Shown piece after piece: positions 55,472 through 59,569 of a stretch of 64,000 nt of DNA. Under the pieces are notes generated by a model. That model ran no database searches and had not been told where the DNA came from. It saw only the letters and a list, made by a program, of their open reading frames with translations. How positions within the stretch are numbered: position 1 is the first letter of the stretch; each line of letters begins with the position of its first letter. Both the position numbers and the translations under genes were made by a program. Source of the stretch: Opitutales bacterium (GTDB taxonomy: Bacteria > Verrucomicrobiota > Verrucomicrobiia > Opitutales > Oceanipulchritudinaceae); NCBI GenBank assembly GCA_007133065.1, contig SLNJ01000016.1:1-64000 (forward strand), read 5' to 3'.

Positions 55472-56938
55472 GTGAACCGGGCTCCACCTCATACATCCGC
55501 ACGGTGGCTGCAGCTGTGCTGCGCCATAGGTATTTTAACGATCGCTGCCCCTTCGGTAAATGCGGAGGTTTGGAATCTTTGGCCCTTCGCGGTGCGGTTT
55601 TCCGCCGATGATGCGGGACGACCGGACCGCACGACCGCCATCGGCCCGCTCTTCGAGCACCGGGAGGGAGCATCCGACATGGCGTGGTCTATTCGACCGT
55701 TCTTTGTTCGCCTTCAATCGGACGAACCTGACAAGCTCCGCCGGAGTTTTCTGTACCCGTTCGCTAATTACGAGGGCACGCCCTCCGGTCGCCACTTCGA
55801 CCTGTTCAACCTGGTACGTCTTGGTGCAATGGACGCCGGAGCCGACCGGGAGTCGCGCTACACGGAGGTTTGGCCGTTCTACTTCGCCCGCCGCGACCCC
55901 CGGGAGGGCCGGTCATACCGTGCCCTCTTTCCCATTGCAGGCACCATACGCAATCGATTCTTTTATGAGGAAATCAATTTTCTTGCCTTTCCTCTCTACC
56001 TCAGAACCAGCAGTCGTGAAGAGGTGACCACCTCCGCGCCGTGGCCGTTTGTGCGGTGGCGCACCGGTCCCGACACGCGCGGGTTCGCGCTCTGGCCGCT
56101 GTTCGGTGCGTTCGAACGGGAGGAGCGCTACAGGCACCGGTATGCCCTGTGGCCGCTGATCTACGATTACCGGGACTACCCCGCAGGGCCGGACACCGCA
56201 CCCTACCACCGACTCGGCGTCCTCCCCTTTTACGCGCGGGAGACCGCTCCCGGGATGCGAAGTAAAACATTTCTCTGGCCTTTTTTCGGCTACACCCGGG
56301 AGTGGGATCCACGTCCCGAGTACCGGGAACGCCGCCTCTTCTGGCCGTTCGTGGTTCAGGGTCGCGGGGAGGAGCGGCACCTCGAGCGCTGGTGGCCGTT
56401 GTACAGCTATCGCCGGGGCAAGGACTTTGAGCGGCGCTGGTTGCTTTGGCCGCTCTATCGATCGCAACAGACTCACGCCCGCGGGATCACGGCGGACCGC
56501 CGCCAGATTCTTTATTTTCTCTATTGGGATGAACGACAGACGCCGATCGCGCCGGACGCCGCGGATTTCCGCGCGCGCCGGACGCACCTGTGGCCGCTGT
56601 TCAGCTATTGGAACGACGGCCGGGAGTCACGCCAGTTCCAGGCGCTCTCTCCGATGGAGGTCTTTTTCCCGTGGAATGAGCTCGTGCGCGAGAAGTACTC
56701 CCCGCTGTTCGCGCTGTACCGTTACGATGCGCGGCCCGGCGGCGACGTGCACCACAGCATCCTCTTTAATCTCATCACCCTGCAGCGCGGACCGGACAGT
56801 CGGCACACCCAAATAGGCCCGATCATCGAGTTCGGCCGTGAGGGATACAACCGCTACCTCCATGTGCTCAAGGGGCTGGTCGGGTACGAGCGGCGGCGCG
56901 AGGGAACGGAGTGGCGGTTCCTCTGGATGGATCGTTGA
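55472..56938 (+). CDS. Exported protein made of about twenty WP-motif repeats, next to mlaEFD
   Basis: 488 aa, GTG start at 55472. Residues 12-31 look like a signal peptide ending near SVNAE. The whole mature part is repetitive: a unit of about 18-20 residues with core [LVF]-[WYF]-P-[LF]-[FYV]-x-[FYR], e.g. at 37, 57, 74, 94, 133, 152, 172, 191, 208, 227, 250, 268, 290, 308, 326, 373 and 409 (LWPLFGAF, LWPLIYDY, LWPFFGY, WWPLYSYR). Charged RxxxRY residues separate the cores. The alternation of aromatic/hydrophobic strands and polar turns suggests a beta-barrel or beta-solenoid, perhaps in the outer membrane. No family recognised. The MlaE permease gene starts 89 bp downstream. Confidence 0.75.
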   Translation: MNRAPPHTSARWLQLCCAIGILTIAAPSVNAEVWNLWPFAVRFSADDAGRPDRTTAIGPLFEHREGASDMAWSIRPFFVRLQSDEPDKLRRSFLYPFANYEGTPSGRHFDLFNLVRLGAMDAGADRESRYTEVWPFYFARRDPREGRSYRALFPIAGTIRNRFFYEEINFLAFPLYLRTSSREEVTTSAPWPFVRWRTGPDTRGFALWPLFGAFEREERYRHRYALWPLIYDYRDYPAGPDTAPYHRLGVLPFYARETAPGMRSKTFLWPFFGYTREWDPRPEYRERRLFWPFVVQGRGEERHLERWWPLYSYRRGKDFERRWLLWPLYRSQQTHARGITADRRQILYFLYWDERQTPIAPDAADFRARRTHLWPLFSYWNDGRESRQFQALSPMEVFFPWNELVREKYSPLFALYRYDARPGGDVHHSILFNLITLQRGPDSRHTQIGPIIEFGREGYNRYLHVLKGLVGYERRREGTEWRFLWMDR

Positions 56939-56984
56939 ACCCTTCGAACCCCGATATGCGAGTCGTTTTGCATAGCATTTCAGG

Positions 56985-57017
56985 AATTGGGGACTAATAT
57001 TACAACAATTGGGGACT
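56985..57017. repeat. Direct repeat AATTGGGGACT x2 upstream of mlaE
   Basis: Identical 11-bp copies at 56985-56995 and 57007-57017, 22 bp apart start to start (two helical turns), 10 nt before the mlaE ATG. They could be an operator that places protein on one face of DNA. They also resemble remnants of GGGGACT-type intergenic repeats, which is an alternative. Confidence 0.55.
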
Positions 57018-57027
57018 GCCCATTCTA

Positions 57028-57780
57028 ATGAAAATGAACAAACCTCTGTTTGAGTCTATCGGAAGTGGAGTCGTGCTCTTTCTGCGCGCGCTCTACTTCC
57101 TTCCGACGCTTCCCCGGCAGTTCCGCCGTTTCATCGAGCAGTGTTTTCAGATCGGGTATAAGACGCTTCCCCTCGTCGCGATTCTCAGCTTCTGTATCGG
57201 CGCGGTTCTGGCGCTTCAGATCGGATATAGTTTTCGCGACTGGGGAACGCAACAGTTCATTGGGAGCATCGTCGGGCTCTCCATGGTGCGGGAGCTCGGG
57301 CCGGTTATGACGGCAATCATGGTGACGGGGAGGGTCGGATCCGCAATCACAGCAGAGCTCGCTTCAATGCGGGTCTACCAGGAGGTGGATGCCCTGCACA
57401 CGATGAACATCCCGCCCGAGCGAATCCTCGTGATGCCCCGACTGGCCGCGATTGCCGTCACGATGCCGGTGCTCACCATAACTTCCGTACTCTTCGGTTG
57501 GTTCGGGGGCGCAGTGGTGGCCCAAAATGTGGCTTTTATCAGCCTGGACAGCGCGATCTACTTCCGATCGCTCAAGGACTTTGTGGACACCGCGGCGGTC
57601 ATGGACGGCCTGATCAAGGCCGAGGTGTTCGGCATCGCGGTGGTGCTGATCTGCTGCAACGTTGGGCTCCGCACGACGGGAGGACCGCGCGAGATCGGGT
57701 TCTCCGTCACCCGCGCCGTCGTCGCCTCGATCATCTTCATCCTCTTGCTCGACTACTTCATAACCCGAGCCCTCCTCTAG
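57028..57780 (+). CDS. mlaE: MlaE-type phospholipid ABC transporter permease
   Basis: 250 aa with five to six TM helices. The MlaE/YrbE signatures are clear: ELGPVMTAIMVTGRVGSAITAELASM and MRVYQEVDALHTMNI, followed by PRLAAIAVTMPVLT. It is the membrane subunit of the inner-membrane complex moving phospholipids between membranes. mlaF follows after 3 bp and mlaD after that, so the core MlaEFD is complete; mlaA, mlaB and mlaC were not found nearby. Confidence 0.94.
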   Translation: MKMNKPLFESIGSGVVLFLRALYFLPTLPRQFRRFIEQCFQIGYKTLPLVAILSFCIGAVLALQIGYSFRDWGTQQFIGSIVGLSMVRELGPVMTAIMVTGRVGSAITAELASMRVYQEVDALHTMNIPPERILVMPRLAAIAVTMPVLTITSVLFGWFGGAVVAQNVAFISLDSAIYFRSLKDFVDTAAVMDGLIKAEVFGIAVVLICCNVGLRTTGGPREIGFSVTRAVVASIIFILLLDYFITRALL

Positions 57781-57783
57781 CAC

Positions 57784-58578
57784 ATGGCCATCGTTTCCCA
57801 GGAATCCAGTCAGATAACCGTGCACGAACCGGTCGCGGTGGAAGTTCGCAACCTTTGCAGGAGTTACGGCGAAACCCAGGTGCTGAAAGACGTCAGCTTT
57901 CAGGTCGAACCCGGCGAAATCTTCGTCATCATGGGTCCGAGCGGGGCGGGTAAGAGCGTGCTCCTGAAGCATATTATTGGACTGGAGCGCGCCGACTCCG
58001 GAGAAATCCTGATCGCCGGCAAGGACGCCTCCAGCACCAAGACCCACCGCGACATCCGCACCGGCATCGTCTTCCAGGCGGGCGCCCTCTTTAACTCGAT
58101 GACGGTCTATGAGAACCTCGCGCTCTACCCCACAGAGCACCGTCTCTACGATAAAGAAACCATTCGCAGGAAGGTCATGGAGGCGCTCGCCATCGTCTCC
58201 CTCGAGGAAGCGGCCGACAAGATTCCCGCGGAGTTGTCGGGCGGGATGAAGAAGCGGGTCGCCGTGGCCCGCGCGCTCGTCATCGAACCGCAGCTGCTCC
58301 TCTACGACGAACCGACCTCGGAGCTCGACCCGATTCTCGCAGCGACCGTCGCCGAGCTGATCGCAACGGTGCGCAAAGAGACCAACCTCACCAGTATTGT
58401 GGTCACCCACGACACCGTCCTCGCCAAGACGATTGGAAACCGCGTCGCCCTCCTCCTGGACGGGCGGATCCATACGATAGCCACCCCCGACGAATTGACC
58501 CGGAACGACGATCCTGATATTCAGGATTTTCTCCATCCAAAAATCGATCTCGACAACCCCCGTTTTCGCAGAAGCTGA
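57784..58578 (+). CDS. mlaF: MlaF-type phospholipid ABC transporter ATPase
   Basis: 264 aa, starting 3 bp after the mlaE stop. Walker A GPSGAGKS, signature LSGGMKKRVAVARAL and Walker B LLYDEPTSELDP are intact. The region TGIVFQAGALFNSMTVYENL is typical of MlaF/Ttg2A ATPases. It drives the MlaE permease. The mlaD gene starts 13 bp downstream with a Shine-Dalgarno (AAAGGA). Confidence 0.95.
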   Translation: MAIVSQESSQITVHEPVAVEVRNLCRSYGETQVLKDVSFQVEPGEIFVIMGPSGAGKSVLLKHIIGLERADSGEILIAGKDASSTKTHRDIRTGIVFQAGALFNSMTVYENLALYPTEHRLYDKETIRRKVMEALAIVSLEEAADKIPAELSGGMKKRVAVARALVIEPQLLLYDEPTSELDPILAATVAELIATVRKETNLTSIVVTHDTVLAKTIGNRVALLLDGRIHTIATPDELTRNDDPDIQDFLHPKIDLDNPRFRRS

Positions 58579-58591
58579 AAGGACCATCGCC

Positions 58592-59569
58592 ATGAGAGAC
58601 ACACTCAACCTCGCTCGAGTCGGGTTATTCTTCGTTCTCGGAATCGCCCTGATTTACATCACTTACGCCACGCTATCGGATCAGCGCCTTCGCGCGGAGG
58701 AAGGTTACGAGGTCCGGGCGGTCTTCGACAATATCCGTACCGTGACCGTTTCCGCCGAGGTCCGGATGGCCGGGGTTCGAATCGGTACCGTGCAGCGCAC
58801 CTTACTTCAGGACGGCAAAGGCGTCGCCGTCCTGACCATCAACGAGAGCATCGAGATCCCCCGGGACTCGACCGCGAAAATCGCGCTCTCGAGCCTGCTG
58901 GGCACGCACTATATAAGCGTCCAATACGGAAACAAAAACGCCGGATACCTTGAGAGTGGCGATAAGATCGCGACGCTGTACACGCCCGACATGGACGACC
59001 TTTTCTCCGAACTGGCCGATGTCGGCGAGAAGGTCGGCCGCGCCGTGGAGCAGTTCTCCGGAGAGGAGTTCTCGGACCTGATGACGCAGCTCAACGCGAT
59101 GGTAACGGACAACCGCCACCGGGTGGACAGCATACTCGGCGATATCGACGAAGTCACCACACGTATGAATCGAGGTGAAGGTACCCTCGGCAAACTACTC
59201 GCCTCCGAAGAGGCCTACGACGCACTGATGGCGACCGTGCACGAAATGCGGCAAGCCGCGGCCGGTGCCAGCGAGACTCTCGCGGACGTGCGAGAGATGG
59301 TCACCCACGTGAAAGCGGGCAAGGGGACGCTTGGGGAACTGATCTACGGCGAAGGCTACGCACGGGAGTTCGAAGCAATCTTCGCCAACATGACCGAGTT
59401 CACGGAGAAGCTGAATTCCAACGAGGGAACCCTCGGAAAACTGGTCACGGACGACGAACTCTACCGCGATCTGCGCAACCTCATCTCCCAGGCCGAACGC
59501 ACACTCGGAACCATGGGCGATTCCGGACCGATTACCGCCGTCGGGGTCGGGGCGCAGGCGCTCTTCTAG
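58592..59569 (+). CDS. mlaD: MlaD-like MCE-domain lipid-transport protein with C-terminal GTLGKL repeats
   Basis: 325 aa, longer than E. coli MlaD (183). TM anchor at about 10-28, MCE domain at 38-130 (EVRAVFDNIRTVTVSAEV split by turn; VRMAGVRIGTV; GTHYISVQYG), then a helical tail with three similar units: RGEGTLGKLLASEEAYDAL (194-212), AGKGTLGELIYGEGYAREF (242-260) and SNEGTLGKLVTDDELYRDL (276-294). This long tail is usual in MCE proteins that form periplasmic extensions. It forms a hexameric ring that channels lipid. The 3' end overlaps the convergent Ada-like gene by 38 bp. Confidence 0.92.
   Translation: MRDTLNLARVGLFFVLGIALIYITYATLSDQRLRAEEGYEVRAVFDNIRTVTVSAEVRMAGVRIGTVQRTLLQDGKGVAVLTINESIEIPRDSTAKIALSSLLGTHYISVQYGNKNAGYLESGDKIATLYTPDMDDLFSELADVGEKVGRAVEQFSGEEFSDLMTQLNAMVTDNRHRVDSILGDIDEVTTRMNRGEGTLGKLLASEEAYDALMATVHEMRQAAAGASETLADVREMVTHVKAGKGTLGELIYGEGYAREFEAIFANMTEFTEKLNSNEGTLGKLVTDDELYRDLRNLISQAERTLGTMGDSGPITAVGVGAQALF

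Follow-up and report, generated by a model that had tools for sequence, protein, structure and literature searches.

The window analysed here is the whole stretch of 64,000 nucleotides from an Opitutales bacterium; the four genes considered follow one another on its forward strand. The first of them (55472–56938, +) is an open reading frame with a GTG start, encoding an exported protein of 488 aa that we call the WP protein after its repeated Trp-Pro motif and that belongs to a conserved, undescribed family. It is separated from mlaE by a gap of 89 bp (56939–57027, +), exactly the spacing given in the original prediction, in which a scan found no terminator-like site. The mlaE gene (57028–57780, +) encodes an ABC permease of 250 aa (PF02405, E=7.6e-70; TIGR00056, 217 bits vs a cut-off of 212.2). 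It is adjoined by mlaF (57784–58578, +), whose product is an ABC ATPase of 264 aa (PF00005, ABC_tran, E=1.1e-35) that the E. coli MlaF equivalog model also matches, with a score below the model cut-off. Finally, mlaD (58592–59569, +) encodes a long MCE protein of 325 aa, composed of a TM helix, the MCE domain and a helical extension (PF02470, E=2.9e-14, 53.5 bits vs a cut-off of 25.1). The core of an Mla/MCE lipid transporter is hence complete at this locus, with MlaE, MlaF and MlaD each profile-matched or adjacent.

The source genome assembly (3.68 Mb, 94% complete) carries one copy of MlaE. That this MlaEFD set lacks visible mlaA and mlaC had been noted before; we can confirm this and extend it beyond the window, as neither MlaA (PF04333) nor MlaC (PF05494) gave a match anywhere in the assembly. 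A PqiC-family protein (PF03886) had no match in the genome either. Omp85 is matched twice, and we therefore conclude that an outer membrane is present. LptD (PF04453) had no match in the source genome (G000) despite Omp85, and is maybe divergent or missing from the assembly.

The WP protein opens with a predicted Sec-type signal peptide (residues 1–31; 55472–55564, +), which was read from the sequence by eye. It shows a positive charge at the start, a hydrophobic stretch and a VNA/E site, and cleavage, likewise judged by eye, would fall between ILTIAAPSVNA and EVWN. A comparable signal-peptide-like stretch is found at the start of other family members. The protein contains 10 exact WP dipeptides, a number that 20,000 residue shuffles never approached more closely than 8, and 15 copies of the looser motif [aromatic/aliphatic]-P-[LFIMY]-x with a spacing of mostly 17–24 residues. 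Across the family about 19 X-P corners are conserved, roughly one every 20 residues, and only about half of them are W-P. The original description as a signal peptide followed by about twenty units thus stands if the 19 X-P corners are counted, while the W-P core assigned to every unit does not.

No named family had been recognised for this protein, and this was borne out by our searches. A single-sequence look-up in Pfam, NCBIfam, PHROGs and the PDB sequences gave no match, and a set of 35 members gave no relevant match against Pfam (E<=0.1) and the PDB sequences. The Pfam MORN motif is absent from the protein and from the 35-member set, no homologue was matched on plasmids, and the open-licence literature yielded no description of the family. 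Within the order Opitutales, a single copy with 32–46% identity is present in 37 of the 89 genomes of relatives. Records of WP loci in GTDB come from Opitutales, Puniceicoccaceae and Opitutaceae, and in a sample across the phylum the WP profile matches 191 of 388 genomes, 171 of them at E <= 1e-14. For the locus searches the profile was made from a closer subset of the family, the full alignment being too diverse.

The position of the gene is strongly conserved. It lies directly 5' of mlaE on the same strand in 32 of the 36 loci of the order; among the other four, mlaE is 1.6 kb off in one, unlinked in two and lost to a contig end in one. The same arrangement is found at 79/80 GTDB loci, where the gap is mostly about −3 to +2 nt, often with an overlap of 1–4 nt. 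Genes that touch or overlap in this way suggest translational coupling. Within Opitutaceae, further neighbours besides mlaEFD are conserved, and the linkage argument therefore rests on the distant set of 80 loci from other classes, with about 25% identity. Here, the WP gene is directly upstream of mlaE at 64 loci, a count that includes four judged by eye where stop-to-stop frames overlapped. The remaining 16 comprise three at a contig edge and 13 unlinked; all 12 genomes with an unlinked WP gene that were first checked, together with the genome of L194, carry mlaE elsewhere. Counting neighbours in these 80 loci, while disregarding antisense frames of these genes, gave mlaE at 64, mlaF at 66 and mlaD at 59, followed by the next commonest family at 21. 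The order, GTDB and distant sets share some genomes, so that their counts are not additive. The check proposed earlier, to count homologues beside mlaEFD across Verrucomicrobiota, turned out positive. In two genomes, G028 and G024, the WP-type mlaEFD and the WP gene are on different contigs and both are kept (L057, L058 with L214, L215); the WP protein of G024 is shorter (386 aa).

We found that the WP protein and the MlaA/MlaC pair avoid each other. In the 89 Opitutales genomes WP is present in 37, MlaA in 18 and MlaC in 17, and in none of the 89 does WP occur together with MlaA or MlaC (Fisher p=2e-5 for WP vs MlaA, in a test that ignores relatedness). One family even holds both states, with 12 WP genomes, 4 MlaA/C genomes and 1 incomplete genome with neither. 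Across the phylum sample, WP and MlaA are both present in 17/388 genomes (odds ratio 0.07, relatedness again ignored). In the genomes of the order that were checked, every WP-type mlaE detected was accompanied by WP, and where genomes have neither WP nor MlaA/C, the MlaE, if any, is a separate longer type of ~380 aa. In the MlaC-MlaA genomes, the mlaC and mlaA genes are usually neighbours of mlaE, mlaF and mlaD. The MlaE tree resolves separate groups for the WP-type of the order, the WP-type of other classes, the MlaC-MlaA-type and the long-type. As the tree splits the WP and the MlaC-MlaA operons, we conclude that a whole operon type was replaced by the other; a gene swap from MlaCA to WP inside one operon was set aside for the same reason.

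The two operon types also differ in MlaD. Its median length in WP operons is 327 aa in the order and 323 aa in the phylum, vs 147 aa in 14 MlaC-MlaA operons; shorter values in the WP set of the order are contig ends, except for L064 (249 aa). The additional length corresponds to a helical extension (residues 134–306; 58991–59509, +) that is absent from MlaD of MlaC-MlaA operons. It is modelled as helices, with low confidence in that part, including the presumed WP-contact region. A C-terminal beta-barrel is not seen in the MlaD model, which has no strands after residue 128, again at low confidence. The protein ends with a hydrophobic tail, GDSGPITAVGVGAQALF-COOH (59516–59566, +), which is conserved in the alignment and which we propose as a docking tip. 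P313, A316, L324 and F325 are invariant in 46 sequences. The tail reads GDxGPITAVGVVAxALF-COOH in Opitutales, and a comparable one, RExxP[IV][TV]xF...GA[FL]-COOH, is found in WP operons of other classes. Long MlaD proteins are reported to be widespread, those of PVC bacteria lacking the C-terminal barrel altogether; for the latter it has been suggested that the hexamer builds a tip of six strands, or that unidentified proteins may be needed (Grasekamp et al. 2023, PMC10665443).

The AlphaFold model of the WP protein is all-beta and of high confidence (pLDDT 94.8, pTM 0.84). In this model, and in agreement with covariation, the mature domain (55565–56938, +) meanders through some 45 strands of 4–8 residues, mostly 5–6, and turns at a W-P or X-P corner roughly once per 20 residues. 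Foldseek searches of the model against PDB and BFVD gave nothing above a TM of ~0.2 (best PDB 0.17), and a weak local likeness was seen to propellers, MORN sheets and OspA (TM ~0.2 or less). Throughout the family, hydrophobicity is limited to about 5 residues, −2 to +2 around the proline (L-W-P-[LF]-[FY]), with polar flanks. Unit-averaged covariation from 168 WP sequences, a thin alignment with an effective number of 135, shows pairing across the WP corners and the polar turns, with means of 1.12 and 1.50 vs 0.52 at mid-strand centres. This suggests that the protein is a continuous up-and-down meander with hairpins at both places, rather than the beta-solenoid that had been considered. A long strand kinked at W-P was set aside, as covariation pairs residues across the corner. 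No clear pairing of the first with the last strand is seen in the same thin set of 168 sequences.

From these data we consider it likely that a transenvelope MlaEFD lipid transporter has the WP protein as its dedicated envelope component, which works in place of MlaC and MlaA. The earlier idea of a non-homologous stand-in linked to MlaEFD is indeed strongly supported by the linkage, the mutual exclusion and the MlaD length. The WP protein is probably the part that joins MlaEFD to the outer membrane. In the mechanism that we propose, MlaE and MlaF would form the inner-membrane ABC transporter, and six long MlaD subunits would build an MCE ring and a helical tube that spans the periplasm. The hydrophobic MlaD C-termini could then contact the WP protein on the inner surface of the outer membrane, where its Trp-Pro/Leu/Phe hairpin tips, arranged as a ring or a ribbon, may sit in the lipid head-group layer, or may line a hydrophobic lipid path to or from the tube. 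Such a direct path from the MlaD tube to the WP protein would make the MlaC shuttle unnecessary. We infer here the WP–MlaD contact, the outer-membrane location, the lipid substrate and the transport direction alike. Going further, it is conceivable, if somewhat doubtful, that the WP protein is a new fold, a closed ring or long ribbon of about 45 six-residue strands with a lipid-facing rim of Trp-Pro hairpin tips. It would then provide a one-tube lipid transporter with its port in the outer membrane, would do so in much of Verrucomicrobiota, and would have arisen independently of MlaA, PqiC and TGD4. The WP protein has neither a lipobox, nor a canonical C-terminal OMP signal, nor beta strands of TM length, and these absences count against a reading at the outer-membrane side. 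The 17 phylum genomes that have WP as well as MlaA, and the 13 unlinked loci of the distant set, also speak against the preferred reading.

In another possibility, the WP protein would be a periplasmic bridge or a lipid-binding trough instead of an end piece in the outer membrane, comparable to LptA or to a shuttle that takes over from MlaC alone, with the W/L/F tips holding acyl chains. Its strands look soluble, its hydrophobic residues are concentrated in one line of hairpin tips, and the single-layer-like meander, which locally bears a weak resemblance to the sheets of MORN proteins and OspA, and the lack of a lipobox would suit such a role. However, the long MlaD is itself of sufficient length to cross the periplasm, which makes a second bridge unnecessary, and WP excludes the outer-membrane part MlaA too and not MlaC alone. 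We therefore regard a bridge or trough as unlikely.

Even less probable, in our judgement, is a classical transmembrane beta-barrel that acts as a lipid pore in the outer membrane, like TGD4 or the C-terminal barrel of Veillonella MlaD. The original prediction had raised an outer-membrane barrel, and an exported, aromatic-rich, all-beta protein encoded in an operon with a long, barrel-less MlaD would fit it. A classical barrel is nevertheless not supported, because the strands measure just 5–7 residues and lie in a continuous meander with hairpins at the WP corner instead of long strands. Moreover, the hydrophobic core covers just the five or so residues at that corner, and no known outer-membrane or other PDB barrel matches the model above a TM of 0.2.

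That the WP protein carries no lipid and instead helps to assemble MlaEFD or regulates it, perhaps as a chaperone of MlaD, seems to us just as improbable as the barrel. From gene order alone such a helper could not be distinguished from a component of the transport path; yet the proteins that WP excludes, MlaA and MlaC, take part in transport and are no chaperones, and WP is also tied to the length of MlaD. That the linkage is mere inherited gene order without a shared function, for which the further conserved neighbours within Opitutaceae could be quoted, is hardly credible, since across classes at this low identity only mlaEFD stays (64/80 vs 21/80) and WP and mlaE are co-retained where they are split.

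The preferred reading, the WP protein as the envelope partner of a transenvelope MlaEFD, can be compared with known systems. The chloroplast transporter TGD1-2-3 works with TGD4, an outer-envelope beta-barrel and thus a non-MlaA partner of an MlaEFD-type transporter. TGD4 resembles the WP protein by its proposed role, and the Pfam scan shows no relation between it and the WP family. The six-component Mla system of E. coli (MlaA-MlaC-MlaBDEF) shares the MlaE/MlaF/MlaD core; in contrast to it, the source genome has no MlaA or MlaC, its MlaD is far longer, and WP is unrelated to MlaA and MlaC by Pfam profile. MORN-repeat proteins and the single-layer sheets of OspA are alike in being short-strand meander sheets with weak local Foldseek likeness, but they have another repeat motif, the TM is ~0.2 or less and WP has no Pfam MORN match. 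The three-component transenvelope MlaEFD of Veillonella parvula (PMC10665443) likewise consists of MlaE, MlaF and a long MlaD with a helical extension and lacks MlaA and MlaC. There, MlaD bears its own C-terminal beta-barrel, whereas here MlaD has no barrel and a separate upstream gene encodes an exported all-beta protein. PqiC of PqiABC is a PF03886 lipoprotein that forms an octameric toroid (Cooper et al. 2024, PMC10897342). It anchors an MCE tube at the outer membrane, the role that we propose for WP as well; WP differs by having no lipobox and no PF03886 match. In sequence and in fold, the WP protein corresponds neither to PqiC nor to TGD4.

These results bear on how MCE transporters without MlaA and MlaC pass lipids to or from the outer membrane. 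They offer a specific, widespread and undescribed family as a candidate for the missing part, with the MlaD C-terminal tail as a testable contact site and with a confident model that has no fold match in the PDB. Close relatives with MlaC-MlaA and a short MlaD on the one side, and WP and a long MlaD on the other, provide a natural comparison.

Several further observations were made along these lines of genomes. Some Opitutales (L198–L210, L212) have mlaE-mlaF-mlaD beside mlaC and mlaA, with a short MlaD, although earlier descriptions confine MlaABC largely to Proteobacteria. A second type of MlaE, ~380–466 aa long, is common in the order (L217:5385-6524 (−), L280:4689-6086) and absent from the source genome. 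Many genomes have it in addition to the WP operon, and the copy of L217, the sole example scanned, carries an N-terminal STAS domain. In other classes of the phylum, MlaA often makes up the N-terminal portion of a protein of 700–800 aa (L304:2550-4763, L305:2801-4984, L307:2747-4873). The C-terminal portion resembles an alpha/beta hydrolase and carries the motif G-x-S-x-G (PF12697, 6.6e-6 in L307), which gives an MlaA-lipase-like fusion. Finally, weak matches to the WP profile (E 1e-4 to 1e-12) were obtained in G053, G067, G089, G164 and about 16 more genomes, which mostly bear MlaA; these proteins may represent remote paralogues of the WP-repeat protein that serve a different role.
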